Positions 1,915-11,509 of a stretch of DNA of 64,000 bases are shown piece after piece; positions within the stretch are counted from its first letter, which is position 1, and each line of letters begins with the position of its first letter. The stretch comes from Candidatus Sulfurimonas baltica. GTDB lineage: Bacteria; Campylobacterota; Campylobacteria; Campylobacterales; Sulfurimonadaceae. Both the position numbers and the translations under genes were made by a program. The stretch lies in NCBI RefSeq assembly GCF_015265455.1, contig NZ_CP054492.1, positions 806,001-870,000 of the forward strand, read 5' to 3'. The notes under the pieces were generated by a model, which saw nothing but the letters and a program-made list of their open reading frames with translations, was not told where the DNA came from and ran no database searches.

Positions 1915-2628
1915 TTATCTTCTTAGGTCTGAAGCATTAGCAAGAGTATCTAGTGTAAATGCCTCATCAGGAAAGTTCTTAGGTGTGATTTTTCCGTAAA
2001 TCATAATAGATTTATAATCTTTATACATAGGCGACATAGTCTCAACAACAGAAGGGCGGACAATTCCATCACCAAAGTCTTTTAGCTCTTTGTAATAGAG
2101 TGTTTTAATCAGCATCTTAGTAGAAGTATAGCACTCCACCTCCATAGGTGTAAGAGTTTTTTTATCTACTTGCATTACAAGCTTATCGTAAGAGACAGTG
2201 TCATTTTTTGCTTTTAGAGTAAGAAGTATAAAATCTTCTTTTTCCTCTTTAGTTACAACATCATACTCAGTGCTAAAATCAAGTCTCATAATATCAGCAT
2301 TGTTAAATACACCGCCTACAACTGATTGCATTGATGTAATACGTAGAGGTCTTCCAACATTTGGAATATATAGCCACATGTTGTCACCAAGACGTAGAGT
2401 TGCACGACCTTTTTCACTATCTGGAGATAAAAACAGCGAAACCATTTTATCTTTGTCTTTTTTTGCTTGAAACATCATAAACTCTTTTTTAGAGCCATCT
2501 GGCTCTATGTTTATAAGTTTTTTATACATTTGTGCAGATACTGGTGTTAGTTTTCTGTCAATTGTCTCAAGTATAGTTTCTGCTAATAGCATTGTGCTTA
2601 GTGTTAGTAATAGGGCAAATAATTTCAT
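1915..2628 (-). CDS. Outer membrane lipoprotein-sorting (LolA-like) periplasmic protein
   Basis: 237 residues with a signal peptide (KLFALLLTLSTMLLAETI) and a body matching the LolA-like domain found beside FtsX/MacB permeases: MFQAKKDKDKMVSLFLSP, then RATLRLGDNMWLYIPNVGRPLRI, then a C-terminal GKITPKNFPDEAFTL strand. LolA-like proteins have a half-open barrel that carries acyl chains or lipoproteins across the periplasm. It sits 10 bases after the permease gene and 7 bases before the barrel gene, so the set forms ATPase, permease, carrier and outer-membrane component. Cargo is unknown. It differs from housekeeping LolA in length and context. Confidence 0.75.
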   Translation of the reverse strand: MKLFALLLTLSTMLLAETILETIDRKLTPVSAQMYKKLINIEPDGSKKEFMMFQAKKDKDKMVSLFLSPDSEKGRATLRLGDNMWLYIPNVGRPLRITSMQSVVGGVFNNADIMRLDFSTEYDVVTKEEKEDFILLTLKAKNDTVSYDKLVMQVDKKTLTPMEVECYTSTKMLIKTLYYKELKDFGDGIVRPSVVETMSPMYKDYKSIMIYGKITPKNFPDEAFTLDTLANASDLRR

Positions 2629-2638
2629 TAGTAAAATC

Positions 2639-3877
2639 CTAGTTTTGTCTTAAAGCATCAACTGGGTTGAGCTTTGCTGCTTTTCTAGCAGGAGAGATTG
2701 AAGCAATAAGAGAGATTATTATTACTATAACACTTACCATTAGCATCTCGTTTACATGTAGAACAGGATTTAGTGTTAGTTCCGCTTGTCTACCAAAAGA
2801 GAAAGTAATACCGACTGTATTGATAACTAAGACGATTAGATAAGAGATAATACTTCCTAAGATGGTGCCAAAAATACCGAGCATAAGCCCCTCTGTTAAA
2901 AAAAGCTTTGTTATAGTGCTTGGTGTAGTACCCATGGCCGCAATAGTTCCTATCTCTTTTATACGCTCGTAAACGCTCATAACCATTACATTTAAAACAG
3001 AAATAAGCACTATGGAGATTAAAATTATTTTAATAGATATATCCATAAGGTTTAACATTTTAACTATGTTATAAAAAGGGCTAAGCTGCTCCCATGAGTG
3101 CACTTCAAAAACCGGCTTTCCTTTTTGGTCGGTAAACTTAGCTAGTGGCTCTAGTTCCTTCATGGCTTTTTCTAAATTGTTAACATCTTTAAGTCTAATT
3201 ACCACTTCACTTATCTCTACCTCTTTTAGTCTAAGAAGCTTTTTAACATCATTGATATGAATATAACCATCTCTTCCTCCTGGTCCTGAAGCAGCCTCTA
3301 CACTTCCTGCAACCATAAAGTTAAGCCCGTTAACAGACCCTTTTTGGTTAGTCGCAACTAAAACTACTGTATCGCCTGTTTTAACCTGCATACCTTTTGC
3401 CAATAACTCTGGCACTAAGATAGTTCCCTCTTTAAGTGAGTCTATTGTGGCACCTTGTATTCGTGATTCAAACAGTGGAAGAGTTTTAGACTCTTTTTGT
3501 GGGTCAATACCGTTTAGTCTAATACTTGTTGATTCTATATAGTTGGAGAACATTGAACCGAGTTTAAGGCGCATTGCATAACTCTCAATAAAAGGGCTCT
3601 CATCTAAAATCTCTGTTATTTTAGCTATCTGCTTCTCATTAAGGTTTTTGTTAAGCGGCAAGTTGTCAACAGAGGCTACATACCCTTTTTTGTGAATTTG
3701 TAAATGTCCTAACATTGAGTCAGTAACCTGACCAACCATATATGCTTTAAAGCTGCCAGAGAGTGCTGAGTAGATTAAAACAAACATTACACCTATAGTA
3801 ATTAAACTAGCTGTTAAGATAGTTCTTCTACCGCTTCTAAGTAGGTTTCTAAAAGAAATTTTTATGATATTTTTCAT
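2639..3877 (-). CDS. FtsX/LolE-type ABC transporter permease
   Basis: 412 residues with the MacB/LolCE layout: one N-terminal membrane helix (about 18-40), a large periplasmic domain (about 45-270) and three C-terminal helices (about 280-400) with the FtsX-domain signature VMSVYERIKEIGTIAAMGTT just after the second helix, then SPARKAAKLNPVDALR at the end. Such permeases work by mechanotransmission, moving lipoproteins, lipids or peptides from the outer leaflet of the inner membrane rather than through a pore. Its stop shares one base with the start region of the upstream ATPase gene, showing translational coupling. Cargo is inferred as lipidic from the LolA-like neighbour. Confidence 0.85.
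   Translation of the reverse strand: MKNIIKISFRNLLRSGRRTILTASLITIGVMFVLIYSALSGSFKAYMVGQVTDSMLGHLQIHKKGYVASVDNLPLNKNLNEKQIAKITEILDESPFIESYAMRLKLGSMFSNYIESTSIRLNGIDPQKESKTLPLFESRIQGATIDSLKEGTILVPELLAKGMQVKTGDTVVLVATNQKGSVNGLNFMVAGSVEAASGPGGRDGYIHINDVKKLLRLKEVEISEVVIRLKDVNNLEKAMKELEPLAKFTDQKGKPVFEVHSWEQLSPFYNIVKMLNLMDISIKIILISIVLISVLNVMVMSVYERIKEIGTIAAMGTTPSTITKLFLTEGLMLGIFGTILGSIISYLIVLVINTVGITFSFGRQAELTLNPVLHVNEMLMVSVIVIIISLIASISPARKAAKLNPVDALRQN
2753..2760. repeat. Iterated palindrome TACATGTA (17 copies; first copy given)
   Basis: Copies start at 2753, 7873, 10234, 18868, 18976, 20055, 25414, 29056, 33536, 38098, 46709, 50965, 52123, 53535, 59366, 60407 and 62068. Most are inside genes on either strand and in different frames; those at 33536 and 52123 are intergenic. 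Ten are followed by G on the + strand. I counted by eye, so a copy may be missed. Confidence 0.8.
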
Positions 3878-4560
3878 TATGCAACCCTTCTGTCATCTGT
3901 AACTACACCATCAACAAGCGTAATGATTCTATCTACTGCTGTAACAATCTTTTCATCATGGGTAGCGAAAATAAACGTAGTGTTAAACTCTTTTTGAATA
4001 TTGCGCATAAGAGTAATAATCTGATTTGATGTATGAGTATCTAGGTTTGCAGTAGGCTCATCAGCAAAGACAATCTTAGGTTTTGTAACTAAAGCTCTCG
4101 CAATGGCTACACGCTGTCTTTGTCCACCTGAGAGTTGATCTGGAAATTTATCTTTTTGGTCTAACATATCAACATCTTTAAGCAGTGTCATAATTCTATC
4201 ATGACGCTCTTTTTCTGGTAGATTTTGAATCATAATTAAGGGATATTCAATGTTCTCATAAACTGAAAGTACAGGGATGAGGTTAAAACTTTGAAAGATA
4301 AAACCTATATTTTCACCTCTGAACTTTGCTAATGCTGTTGTGTCTAGCTGAGTTACGTCTGTCTCATCTATAAATATTTTTCCATCAGTCGGCTTATCTA
4401 AGCAGCCAAGCAGATTTAATACGGTACTTTTTCCGCTGCCGCTTGGCCCAACAATTGCAACAAACTCACCGTAGTTTATTTGAAGGTTAAGGTCTTTTAA
4501 AACTGTTAAATCAACCTCTCCCATTTTATATACTTTACTGACATTTTGATTGGATATCAT
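3877..4560 (-). CDS. ABC transporter ATP-binding protein (LolD/MacB type)
   Basis: 227 residues with Walker A GPSGSGKST (about 40-48), Q-loop FQSFNLIPVLSVYENI, signature LSGGQRQRVAIARAL, Walker B IVFADEPTANLD and the H-loop ATHD. The sequence belongs to the LolD/MacB/FtsE group that energises FtsX-type permeases, and the next gene encodes such a permease. First gene of a four-gene minus-strand operon ending with the barrel at 783. The start is preceded by GGAG (reading minus), and a 146-base AT-rich divergent promoter region separates it from the M48 protease gene. Confidence 0.88.
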   Translation of the reverse strand: MISNQNVSKVYKMGEVDLTVLKDLNLQINYGEFVAIVGPSGSGKSTVLNLLGCLDKPTDGKIFIDETDVTQLDTTALAKFRGENIGFIFQSFNLIPVLSVYENIEYPLIMIQNLPEKERHDRIMTLLKDVDMLDQKDKFPDQLSGGQRQRVAIARALVTKPKIVFADEPTANLDTHTSNQIITLMRNIQKEFNTTFIFATHDEKIVTAVDRIITLVDGVVTDDRRVA

Positions 4561-7327: not shown

Positions 7328-8431
7328 ATGAAAAAAACTACAATTTTTCTTTACACACTCTTACTTATTTTTACATACTCTTCGCTATGTGCCTTTTCAA
7401 AGGAGGCAAATTCAGAACCTGTCTTAGTCCAGAGCGGTAAGCAAAAACATTGGTGCAGTGTCTGTGGAATGAATATAAAAATGAACTATAAAACTTCTCA
7501 TACTTCTAAACTGCCTAGTGGCAAAAACAGACAATATTGCTCTATTAGATGTTTAACAGTGGATATGCATGAGCATAACCTAAATGCTGATGATGTGAAA
7601 GTGGTAGATGTATTAAGTGAAGAGCTTATAGATGCAAAAGCAGCTTTTTACGTAGTTGGCTCAGATATTAAAGGGACGATGACGAAGGTTAGCAAGCTAG
7701 CTTTTGAAAATGCCGAATCAGCAGAAGATTTTAGTATTGAAAACGGCGGAGATGTTGTTAGTTTTGATAAAGCTCTTGAGATTGCAAAAAAATCTTTAGA
7801 GTCTGATATCCAAATGATAAATAAAAAGAAAATAAAAAAAATATACCCAATGGGGAAGAAAATATTTGAAAATACATGTAAAAAAGATATTGAGCCAAAA
7901 AACTATTTACAAATCAATGAGTTGAAGTCAGCTATTAAAAATGAGAACTTATGTAAAGAAAAAAATGGTGAAGAGCTAGATGAAAAAGAGCTTCAGGCAG
8001 TTTCAGTTTATCTGTGGGAAGTAAAAAAGTTTGATGATTTAGAAAAAATTGCTAATACAATAAAAGTAACAAAAGATGAGAAATGTCCAATTTGTGGCAT
8101 GTTTGTATATAAATATCCAAAATGGGCTGCTCAAATTTTTTATGGCGATTCTCATCTTTCATTTGACGGGATAAAAGACATGATGAAGTATTATTTTAAA
8201 CATAAAGATAGTGTTTCAAAAATCTTAGTTACAGATTATTACTCTCAAAAAGCTATAGACGGAGCGGAAGCATACTATGTTATAGGGAGTGATGTTTATG
8301 GACCTATGGGAGATGAAATAATTCCATTTAAAAATGAGAGTGAAGCAAAAACTTTTAACATTGATCATAAGGGGTTTAAGGTTTTAAATTTTATTGATAT
8401 AAATAAAGAAGAAGTAGATAAGCTTGATTAA
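7328..8431 (+). CDS. Double NosL-domain periplasmic protein
   Basis: 367 residues. A signal sequence (1-22) leads into a first NosL-like domain with CSVCGM (C43, C46, M48) and a second cluster C71/C75/M80/H81, then a linker (about 170-235), then a second NosL-like domain with CPICGM (C253, C256, M258). Both domains repeat the AAFYVVGSD / AEAYYVIGSD strand and the GPMG/GTMT loop typical of NosL. NosL delivers copper for nitrous oxide reductase assembly. The linker resembles a cytochrome c domain without haem-binding residues (GKKIFENTC start, AVSVYLWEVKK end). First of five tightly packed genes; no nosZ is visible, so the target is unknown. Copper binding is inferred from family and ligands. 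Confidence 0.85.
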   Translation: MKKTTIFLYTLLLIFTYSSLCAFSKEANSEPVLVQSGKQKHWCSVCGMNIKMNYKTSHTSKLPSGKNRQYCSIRCLTVDMHEHNLNADDVKVVDVLSEELIDAKAAFYVVGSDIKGTMTKVSKLAFENAESAEDFSIENGGDVVSFDKALEIAKKSLESDIQMINKKKIKKIYPMGKKIFENTCKKDIEPKNYLQINELKSAIKNENLCKEKNGEELDEKELQAVSVYLWEVKKFDDLEKIANTIKVTKDEKCPICGMFVYKYPKWAAQIFYGDSHLSFDGIKDMMKYYFKHKDSVSKILVTDYYSQKAIDGAEAYYVIGSDVYGPMGDEIIPFKNESEAKTFNIDHKGFKVLNFIDINKEEVDKLD

Positions 8432-8732
8432 TAAAAAAAGCAGAGTTCTCTTTTATATTTTTTTGTTTCTTATTGGAGCTGTGATTACAGAGATTATCTA
8501 TCTTGGCACTAAAGGCAGTAGTGAAACTATAGACTCTAAAGTGGCATTTGTGAAGCTGGCAGGGCTACCGGATTTAGCTATCTCAACTGAAGCGAGTTAT
8601 GTTAGACACAGAAGCATGAGCGATATGTTTTCTATATTTAAAGATGATGTGAGCTTGAGAGAGTATTTTGTATCAACTTTTACCTACTCGCACTCTCACA
8701 TTATTAATAAAAAGAGTTTAAATGAGAAGTAA
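8424..8732 (+). CDS. Small membrane-anchored protein of the NosL/ABC cassette
   Basis: 102 residues starting at a TTG that overlaps the end of the NosL gene by 8 bases. One N-terminal helix (about 9-28) would anchor a roughly 70-residue periplasmic domain; near the C-terminus is a short HSH motif (YSHSHIINKK) that could bind a metal, and another HR pair lies at VRHRSMSDMF. I do not recognise the family. The 8-base overlap upstream and 11-base overlap with the permease downstream make it a co-translated part of the cassette. Its placement between a copper-chaperone-like protein and an ABC permease suggests an adaptor role, which is inference only. Confidence 0.6.
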   Translation: MINKKSRVLFYIFLFLIGAVITEIIYLGTKGSSETIDSKVAFVKLAGLPDLAISTEASYVRHRSMSDMFSIFKDDVSLREYFVSTFTYSHSHIINKKSLNEK

Positions 8733-9897
8733 AATAAATATTTATCTAATAGAGTATGCAATAAACTCTCTACTGAGACAAAAATATAAAAGCTTTTTTA
8801 TAACTGCTGTCTTAACTACTCTTATATTTATACTAACCTCAGTCTTTTTTATAACCAATTCAATAAAATATGAACTCCAAAGCACTGTAGATTCTCTGCC
8901 GGAGATAGTAGTACAAAAGATAAAAGCTGGTCGTCACAGTGATATAGATGTTAGTGTAGCCGATGATATACTAGAAATTGCGGGGGTTACCTCTACTGTT
9001 TCGAGAGTTTGGGGATATTACTATTTTGAAAATATTGGTGTTAATTTTAGTATTGTCGGTATAGAGAAGTATGAACAACAATATAAAAACTCCTTTGAAA
9101 ATATTGCTAAAACATTTGACTTTAGCGTTAACTCGATGATTGTCGGAGAGGGTGTTAAAAATAGTATGAACAAGAGCTACTACAACGAGTATTTTAACTT
9201 TATAAAACCAGATGGTAAACTCAAAAAAATCATGATTAGTGGAGTTTTTAAACCAGAGACTGAGCTAGAATCAAATGATATTATAGTTATGAGCAAAGAT
9301 AATGTCAGAGAAATTTTTGATATAGAAGACTCAAAAGCCACAGATATTGTTGTTAATGTTTCAAATGTAGATGAAATCCAAACCGTTGCTTCAAAAATCA
9401 AGCTTATGTTTCCAGATAGCAGAGTGATAACAAAAGATGATTTGAAAATTAGTTATCAAAATATTTTTGATTACAAAAGTGGAGTTTTTTTAGCACTTTT
9501 TACAATCGCACTATTTACATTTTTTATAATTATTTACGATAAAGCAAGCGGACTAAGTAGCGAAGAAAAAAGAGAGATAGGGATACTTAAGGCAATTGGC
9601 TGGAGAGTTGATGATGTTTTAAAGGAGAAGTTTTATGAGGGTTTTATTATTTCGTTTTTTTCATATCTGCTTGGTGTCTTACTCTCTTTAGCCTTTGTAT
9701 ACATCCTTAAAGCACCATTTTTGCAAAATATTTTTACAGGGTATTCAGAGTTGAAAACATCTTTTGAGTTACCTTTTGTTTTTGACATTCAAACACTGTC
9801 CCTTATCTTCTTTTTAAGTGTGCCAATTTATATAGCCGCTATTATTATCCCATCTTGGAGAAGTGCTACACTAGACAGCGACGAGGTTATAAGATGA
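8722..9897 (+). CDS. FtsX/MacB-type ABC permease of the NosL cassette
   Basis: 391 residues: an N-terminal helix (about 22-45), a periplasmic domain (about 48-250) and three C-terminal helices (about 255-385), with the FtsX signature EEKREIGILKAIGW after the second helix. The C-terminus (IPSWRSATLDSDEVIR) matches the usual end of MacB-like permeases. Together with the ATPase whose ATG overlaps its stop (ATGA at 9894-9897), it makes a complete mechanotransmission-type exporter or assembly machine. Nos clusters normally have the NosFY ABC pair acting with NosD; this permease is a different class, so an analogous rather than homologous system is likely. Confidence 0.8.
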   Translation: MRSKINIYLIEYAINSLLRQKYKSFFITAVLTTLIFILTSVFFITNSIKYELQSTVDSLPEIVVQKIKAGRHSDIDVSVADDILEIAGVTSTVSRVWGYYYFENIGVNFSIVGIEKYEQQYKNSFENIAKTFDFSVNSMIVGEGVKNSMNKSYYNEYFNFIKPDGKLKKIMISGVFKPETELESNDIIVMSKDNVREIFDIEDSKATDIVVNVSNVDEIQTVASKIKLMFPDSRVITKDDLKISYQNIFDYKSGVFLALFTIALFTFFIIIYDKASGLSSEEKREIGILKAIGWRVDDVLKEKFYEGFIISFFSYLLGVLLSLAFVYILKAPFLQNIFTGYSELKTSFELPFVFDIQTLSLIFFLSVPIYIAAIIIPSWRSATLDSDEVIR

Positions 9898-10562
9898 TTG
9901 AGTTGAAAAATATAACTAAAAAATATGAAATAAATAAAAACAATATTATAACGGCAATAGATAATATAAACTTATCTATTAAAGAAGGTGAATTGGTCGT
10001 TTTAAGAGGTCCAAGCGGAAGTGGAAAAAGTACTATTTTATCACTTATTGCAGCTCTTAGTAAGCCTACTAGCGGAGAAGTTATTGTTGATAAAAAAAGA
10101 ATCTCTAAACTATCAGATGATTTTGCATCAGATTTCAGGCGTGACAACATAGGTTTTATTTTTCAAAAGTATAATCTTCTTGCAAATCTTAGTGTTAAAG
10201 AAAATATTATTCTTCCTCTTATCCCGATGAATCTACATGTAGATGTTATTGAGCAAAAACTATCAAGAGTTTTAGACATGTTTCATATAGAGCATAAAAA
10301 AGATATTCTAGTTAAAAATTTGTCCGGCGGGGAACAGCAAAGGGTAGCCATAGCTCGCGCATATATCAATGAACCTAAAATAATTTTAGCTGATGAGCCA
10401 ACTGCAAACTTGGACAAGAATCTTTCACTTGCATTTATAGCGATATTAAAAGAGCTAAAAGCTCAAGGGAGAACAGTTGTTATAGCTACACATGACCCTG
10501 TCTTTTTTACCCTTGATATAGTCGATAGAGAGATAGAAATAAACCAAGGCGTAATTAGCTAA
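9894..10562 (+). CDS. ABC transporter ATP-binding protein of the NosL cassette
   Basis: About 222 residues from the ATG at 9894 (MIELKNITKK), which overlaps the permease stop as ATGA; a longer frame from 9855 would only extend into the permease and is less likely. Motifs: Walker A GPSGSGKST, Q-loop FQKYNLLANLSVKENI, signature LSGGEQQRVAIARAY, Walker B IILADEPTANLD and H-loop ATHD. It is of the LolD/MacB type matching its FtsX-like partner. The stop overlaps the next start by one base (TAATG), so all five cassette genes are translationally linked. Confidence 0.85.
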   Translation: MIELKNITKKYEINKNNIITAIDNINLSIKEGELVVLRGPSGSGKSTILSLIAALSKPTSGEVIVDKKRISKLSDDFASDFRRDNIGFIFQKYNLLANLSVKENIILPLIPMNLHVDVIEQKLSRVLDMFHIEHKKDILVKNLSGGEQQRVAIARAYINEPKIILADEPTANLDKNLSLAFIAILKELKAQGRTVVIATHDPVFFTLDIVDREIEINQGVIS

Positions 10563-11509
10563 TGTTACTCTCTCCACAGGTCTTGACTATACTTATCCTA
10601 AATTTTATATTTGCCATTTTTGCAATAGTTGCATTTGCTCTTAGCGCGAATATATTTTTGAAATTTGATATTAACTCTACATCTAAAATTCAATATGATT
10701 TAGAGAAGCAAAGTGTTTTAGCTGCTACAATCATTAAGTTTATCTTTGCTATAAAAATTCCACTTTTTTTATTTTTTATTTTTACTATTGATAAAATATC
10801 AAATGTATTGACAGGCGCTATGTGCGGGGCAGGAGTCATTGATGCTACTGAATATGGAGCTTATCTAATAGCGCTAAAAATCATAAATCTTTATTTATTT
10901 GCTTATTGGCTGAAACTACATGCAGAAGATGTAAAGTATGAGAATCAACCATATACTAAGATAAAGTTTGGAGTATTTATTGCTCTGTTTTTCTTTTTGA
11001 TGGTTGAGATAATATTGGATGCAGTTATGTTTAACGCAATAGATATAGATAAGATGGTGAGCTGTTGCGGAAGTTTATATTCTAGTTCTTCTTCCTCTGC
11101 AATTGGCGCTGTTTTTACATTAGATACAACTACTGTTTTAACTATATTTTATTGTAATTTTTTATTTATAGCACTGTTTTATTTTTTAAAAAAACGACAT
11201 TTGTTTGCATTGGCAAATATACTTTTTATTGTAGTTGCTTTGATTAGTCTAATCTCTTTTTTTGGTACATATATCTATGCGCTCCCATCACATCATTGCC
11301 CATTTTGTTTTTTAAAGCATGACTACTACTATGTTGGGTATATTATATATTTTTTACAATTTATAGGAACATTTTATGGGATAGCAGTTGGTTTTATAAA
11401 AGAGTCACAAAAGTCTTATAACATATCAATTTTATTTAATGCTCTTTATGTAGTTTTACTTAGCTTGTATGTAGCAATATATTACATAAAAAAAGGTGTT
11501 ATGCTCTAA
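10562..11509 (+). CDS. Eight-helix membrane protein with Cys motifs, NosL cassette
   Basis: 315 residues with about eight predicted membrane helices (roughly 8-30, 50-72, 95-115, 130-150, 183-205, 211-236, 250-275, 283-306). Notable cysteines sit in loops: GAMCGAGV after helix 2, SCCG followed by a serine run after helix 4, and HHCPFC after helix 6. CPFC is a CxxC arrangement that could be redox active or bind copper. I do not recognise the family. As the last gene of the NosL/ABC cassette, starting one base inside the ATPase stop, it is the best candidate for the inner-membrane metal or thiol-handling partner. It ends 4 bases inside the convergent gene at 11506. Confidence 0.65.
   Translation: MLLSPQVLTILILNFIFAIFAIVAFALSANIFLKFDINSTSKIQYDLEKQSVLAATIIKFIFAIKIPLFLFFIFTIDKISNVLTGAMCGAGVIDATEYGAYLIALKIINLYLFAYWLKLHAEDVKYENQPYTKIKFGVFIALFFFLMVEIILDAVMFNAIDIDKMVSCCGSLYSSSSSSAIGAVFTLDTTTVLTIFYCNFLFIALFYFLKKRHLFALANILFIVVALISLISFFGTYIYALPSHHCPFCFLKHDYYYVGYIIYFLQFIGTFYGIAVGFIKESQKSYNISILFNALYVVLLSLYVAIYYIKKGVML

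Follow-up and report, generated by a model that had tools for sequence, protein, structure and literature searches.

Which machine do five overlapping genes build when they join a NosL-type protein to an FtsX-type ABC transporter, in a Sulfurimonas genome where nosZ is not matched (TIGR04246, 0 matches)? The window, which is the whole stretch of 64,000 nucleotides that was analysed, belongs to a genome (G000) of 2.74 Mb in one contig. We regard it as probable that this cassette is an ATP-driven periplasmic copper-loading machine for copper-dependent anaerobic respiratory enzymes, with NosZ and MccA as clients.

Gene organisation of the locus

The first-pass annotation had placed five overlapping genes at positions 7328-11509, and all five open reading frames were found there on the + strand:

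7328-8431, + strand: gene 1, two-domain NosL protein, 367 aa (signal peptide, NosL domain 1 with CSVCGM...QYCSIRCL, central domain, NosL domain 2 with CPICGM ... GPMG)
8424-8732, + strand: gene 2, small anchored protein, 102 aa, TTG start (one N-terminal TM helix and a short periplasmic tail with LPDLAISTEA..RHR)
8722-9897, + strand: gene 3, FtsX-type permease, 391 aa (PF02687)
9894-10562, + strand: gene 4, ABC ATPase of the FtsE/LolD class, 222 aa from the ATG at 9894 (GPSGSGKST, LSGGEQQR and ILADEPTANLD)
10562-11509, + strand: gene 5, eight-helix Cys-rich membrane protein (8TM), 315 aa

Read from the sequence in gene order, the junctions are an 8-bp overlap, an 11-bp overlap, an ATGA overlap and a TAATG overlap. 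The list of open reading frames offers an alternative start for gene 4 (TTG at 9855, 235 aa). A second FtsX/LolD pair lies near the cassette and is separate from it (window 1915-4560, minus strand), together with a LolA-like outer-membrane lipoprotein-sorting protein.

Component proteins

The gene 1 product matches the Pfam NosL family PF05573 at 178.5 bits (cut-off 24) in two stretches (genome-scan scores 123 and 61.8 bits), and matches the NosL of PDB entries 7osf and 7znq by sequence at E 3e-5. Its AlphaFold model (pLDDT 91) retrieved the NosL of NosDFYL with Foldseek at E 2e-7, confirming the NosL fold. Both Cu(I) ligand motifs, CxxCGM and GxMG, are present and align with the NosL of the NosDFYL structure; C253, C256, G257, M258 and M327 of the second domain are invariant in 31 homologues, and the motif of the first domain is degraded in some homologues. 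The window's protein has a signal peptide and no evident lipobox. The central domain contains two conserved cysteines (C184 and C209). Its identification as a cytochrome c is doubtful: Foldseek matches to cytochrome c6 were recurrent but insignificant (E 3-7), no profile of the NosC cytochromes matched and no CxxCH is present. A sixth gene, encoding a small NosL-like protein, follows the cassette in 51 of 90 loci and is absent from the window. Elsewhere in the same genome (L034:7421-9253 and 9262-11355, contig C1 at about 1.381-1.385 Mb), a 610-aa membrane polyferredoxin with a fused C-terminal NosL domain adjoins a TonB receptor, an arrangement that looks like copper uptake with reduction.

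FtsX/LolD-class ABC systems perform mechanical work in the periplasm, and genes 3 and 4 belong to this type VII class through an FtsX permease domain and an FtsE/LolD-class ATPase. Gene 3 scored 45.5 bits against FtsX PF02687 (cut-off 25.5), and an FtsX-type permease gene was found in 87 fetched loci; gene 4 scored 126.7 bits against ABC_tran PF00005. Neither protein reached any equivalog cut-off for LolCDE, FtsEX or MacB: the permease has weak LolCE/MacB similarity (LolCE 43 bits, cut-off 362), and the ATPase scored 202.8 bits for FtsE (cut-off 265) and 193.6 bits for LolD (cut-off 308).

Gene 2 matched no Pfam and no NCBIfam family. A small anchored open reading frame (60-120 aa) is present directly 5' of the FtsX gene in most cassettes and evolves fast: one group keeps LPDLA...EA..IRHR, while conservation in others is limited to the anchor and a terminal FVY-like motif. 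The HSH motif of this protein is poorly conserved, being absent from L043, L046, L055 and the majority of the other relatives, and a reading of it as a metal site finds no support.

The gene 5 product has no sequence match in Pfam, NCBIfam or PDB, and its AlphaFold model (pLDDT 83, eight long helices) no PDB fold match below E 0.4; judged by these comparisons, it is a new family. In particular, none of these searches linked it to DsbB or VKOR. The CCG and HCPFC motifs noticed at first sight are real and their cysteines invariant, and a third invariant motif, GAMC..GV, was found; the invariant residues are C88 in GAMC..GV, C168 and C169 in CC, and H244, C246 and C249 in H.CPFC. All five cysteines are on even loops, which average 0.6-0.8 Lys/Arg against 1.9-3.7 on odd loops, and the positive-inside rule therefore predicts every invariant cysteine on the periplasmic side. 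In two loci (L204:4713-5186 and L187:10097-10570), a 157-aa YtkA-like protein with an NMNMGYH motif is encoded directly after the eight-helix protein and is possibly another copper carrier.

Distribution and conservation of the cassette

Homologues of the eight-helix protein were found in 48 of the 121 genomes of the family and in 161 of the 397 sampled genomes of Campylobacterota. Nearly all fetched loci keep the order NosL, small anchored protein, FtsX, ATPase, 8TM, and at least six families of the phylum have the cassette (family names, apart from Sulfurimonas and Wolinella, are putative readings). The view that the five genes form one unit is thus upheld, and the contrary case, a set seldom found intact among relatives, is contradicted. 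Synteny is mostly kept among Sulfurimonas loci, where the cassette follows an M48 peptidase gene, prmC and a gene with DUF4149. FtsX-ATPase-8TM stands without an adjacent NosL gene in some Arcobacteraceae-like genomes (L174, L189, L193, L210-L212), next to a dksA-like gene and mostly also truD. GTDB genomes contain 539 relatives, of which the best 80 come from Campylobacterota wherever the taxon is named. Spread by plasmids was rejected: tblastn gave no match among 72,556 plasmid records.

Association with nosZ and mccA

As scored by TIGR04246, nosZ is present in 128 of the 397 genomes. The cassette occurs in 103 of these 128 and in 58 of the 269 genomes without nosZ (odds ratio 15; raw genome counts that ignore kinship), and with the MccA genomes left out it occurs in 60/85 and 46/257, respectively. 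Among the 27 genomes with both coordinates on contig 1, it is located less than 25 kb from nosZ in 12, where 0.57 would be expected. NosZ can nevertheless be made without it, since 25 nosZ genomes have no cassette; moreover, nos genomes with the cassette also retain the NosDFY genes, so that it is no simple replacement there. In the Wolinella succinogenes assembly (G275), nosZ is split in two pieces (C1:870653-873755).

The second context is mccA, whose product is a haem-copper sulfite reductase. A full MccA query (1269 bits against PDB 4RKM) matched 96 genomes in two score groups, 55 with at least 987 bits (Wolinella type) and 41 with at most 638 bits, a division drawn after the gap in bit scores had been seen. 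All 55 Wolinella-type genomes (again a raw count) carry the cassette, 9.6-13.3 kb from mccA in the 30/30 pairs with listed coordinates, whereas only 7 of the 41 genomes with the more distant type do. The order is mccA-FKBP-4Fe4S-NrfD-CcsA-Sel1-NosL-small-FtsX-ATPase-8TM, and a fragment flanking the cassette in these clusters matches MccA 4RKM. The cassette closes the mcc cluster in Campylobacteraceae, in Sulfurospirillum-like and some Arcobacteraceae-like genomes (putative names) and in Wolinella; in Wolinella succinogenes, whose MccA is identical to 4RKM over 691 residues, it is located at L167:6417-10374. In the 8TM tree, the mcc-linked proteins (16/16) fall into a single clade with support 0.98, and the nos-linked ones are scattered; the single clade indicates that mcc linkage probably arose once and has held since. 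The Shewanella locus of sir, a related sulfite reductase, carries nosL and nosY (PMC5955497), which suggests that NosDFYL and the cassette may replace each other at a sulfite reductase.

These two independent copper-enzyme contexts, together with the invariant NosL ligand motifs, support the copper link proposed at first. Copper also figures in the surroundings of one copy (L036), which has a multicopper oxidase and CopB nearby. The description of the locus as lacking nosZ holds for the window's genome, but many relatives of the cassette adjoin nosZ. The possibility that it is just the usual nos accessory set agrees with those relatives, yet the cassette is also locked to mccA and is under purifying selection in a nosZ-less clade (see below).

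The cassette in the window's genome

The client in the window's own genome was sought among several candidates. MccA is excluded there (no match at E 0.01), as is a multicopper oxidase or NirK (no PF07732 match), and the absence of NosD (PF05048) speaks against a remnant nos cluster. A haem-copper oxidase is present, but such oxidases in general were rejected as the client, being also found in G077 and G119, the two Sulfurimonas genomes in the sample that lack the cassette. The window's genome also has norCB (norC-norB with accessory genes at L218:6802-11198) and may be that of a denitrifier with a truncated pathway, releasing N2O.

In the tree, nos-adjacent Sulfurimonas cassettes surround the window's 8TM protein, and nosZ was therefore probably lost in this lineage. 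This placement gives some weight to the idea that the window's cassette was left behind when a nos system was lost and no longer has a function, as do the absence of nosZ and nosD, the presence of norCB as in a truncated denitrifier, and the lack of the sixth NosL-like gene. However, we consider this idea unlikely: all five genes are intact with their motifs and overlaps, nosZ is absent from the genomes of 11 of the 31 Sulfurimonas cassettes sampled, and one nosZ-less clade (G059, G079 and G091) retains the cassette, its FtsX, ATPase and 8TM genes having dN/dS of 0.05-0.12 at dS values from about 0.7 upwards. Purifying selection in this clade points to a likely role, in at least some Sulfurimonas, that involves neither NosZ nor MccA. 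Both nosZ and Wolinella-type MccA are absent from 46 of the 161 genomes with the cassette, so that the two clients do not explain all occurrences; a third one probably exists.

Proposed mechanism and significance

In a copper-loading machine, the NosL protein would carry Cu(I) on its CxxCGM/GxMG sites, while the FtsX permease and the LolD-class ATPase would convert cytoplasmic ATP into conformational work in the periplasm. This step is modelled on type VII ABC systems and on NosFY, which acts on NosD so that copper passes from NosL to NosZ. The small anchored protein might couple the permease to NosL, and the five periplasmic cysteines of the eight-helix protein might supply or receive thiolate-bound Cu(I), or keep thiols reduced. 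In the window's genome, which lacks NosZ and MccA, the machine would serve a third client protein, or the cassette would be a recent remnant of a lost nos system. The data show the five-gene unit, its conservation, its position at nosZ and mccA and the invariance of the metal-type residues; copper as the metal, the direction of transfer and the roles of the single parts are what we infer.

The machine could instead act on the enzyme or on its folding state, either by a LolCDE-like release from the membrane or by thiol exchange with a DsbB/VKOR-like eight-helix protein. FtsX/LolD-class systems extract or remodel lipoproteins, and it is to the LolCDE/FtsE class that the ABC pair of the cassette comes closest. 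HCPFC looks like a redox CxxC; mcc clusters also include a haem lyase and FKBP folding factors, and DsbD_2-type genes follow some copies of the cassette. Against this, the conserved soluble partner is a NosL with intact copper ligands, the signal peptide of the window's NosL shows no evident lipobox, the eight-helix protein matched neither DsbB nor VKOR by sequence or fold, and its additional invariant CC and MC cysteines suit thiolate metal binding as well as redox. We hold this explanation to be rather improbable. Copper export or detoxification, also suggested at first, is highly improbable: a multicopper oxidase and CopB near one copy (L036) would fit it, but the obligate mccA linkage and the enrichment at nosZ, the lack of the cassette in most genomes of a phylum whose members all face copper, and the absence of any Cus-type or P-type ATPase partner in the cassette do not. 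An outer-membrane client likewise found no support.

The preferred copper-loading reading bears on two enzymes whose copper sites are filled in a way so far only partly understood: MccA and N2O reductase, the latter being the principal known biological sink of N2O. Fixed to MccA in 55/55 genomes, the cassette is a candidate for the missing MccA copper inserter; common at nosZ, it is a candidate extra NosZ assembly factor in Campylobacterota. It further suggests that another ABC class, besides that of NosDFY, has come to do the same kind of job, and predicts a so far unrecognised copper enzyme in genomes without NosZ and MccA. More tentatively, and as something possible rather than probable, it may represent an undescribed class of metal-insertion machine that combines a type VII ABC motor with a new eight-helix thiolate family and loads copper into respiratory enzymes as unrelated as NosZ and MccA and, in many Campylobacterota, into a third one.

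Comparison with known systems

The five-gene set has so far gone almost unnoticed. The sole description of nos-linked copies that we found is a remark on the nos cluster of Sulfurospirillum cavolei, in which five genes, an ABC permease and an ATPase among them, are inserted between nosL and nosY (PMC4794192); the insertion fits the order nosL-small-FtsX-ATPase-8TM-nosL-NosY seen in L179, and that paper proposes no function and no mcc link. No paper tying such a cassette to MccA was found in a literature search that covered mostly papers free of subscription. A NosL-NosDFY locus without nosZ was noted in Parageobacillus (PMC13068155) and, unlike the cassette, has NosD. In the mcc cluster of Wolinella succinogenes (cited in PMC6976685 after Kern et al. 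2011), locus L167 shows the cassette downstream of mccABCD-ccsA, whereas the window's genome, having no MccA, falls outside this sulfite respiration system.

With the type VII ABC systems (LolCDE, MacB and FtsEX) the cassette shares the FtsX domain and the FtsE/LolD-class ATPase, but its partner proteins differ and its scores are under all equivalog cut-offs. With NosDFYL (PDB 7osf, 7znq) it shares a NosL-family Cu(I) protein with CxxCGM and GxMG, an ABC ATPase with a permease, and placement at nosZ. It is not itself a NosDFYL system: its permease is of the FtsX type (PF02687) and not NosY, it has no NosD beta-helix protein, and nosZ is missing from the window's genome. In addition, its NosL is doubled around a central domain, and two components are added, the small anchored protein and the eight-helix Cys protein. 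We conclude that the cassette is a second copper-loading ABC machine, which would work like NosDFYL with a different class of ABC transporter.
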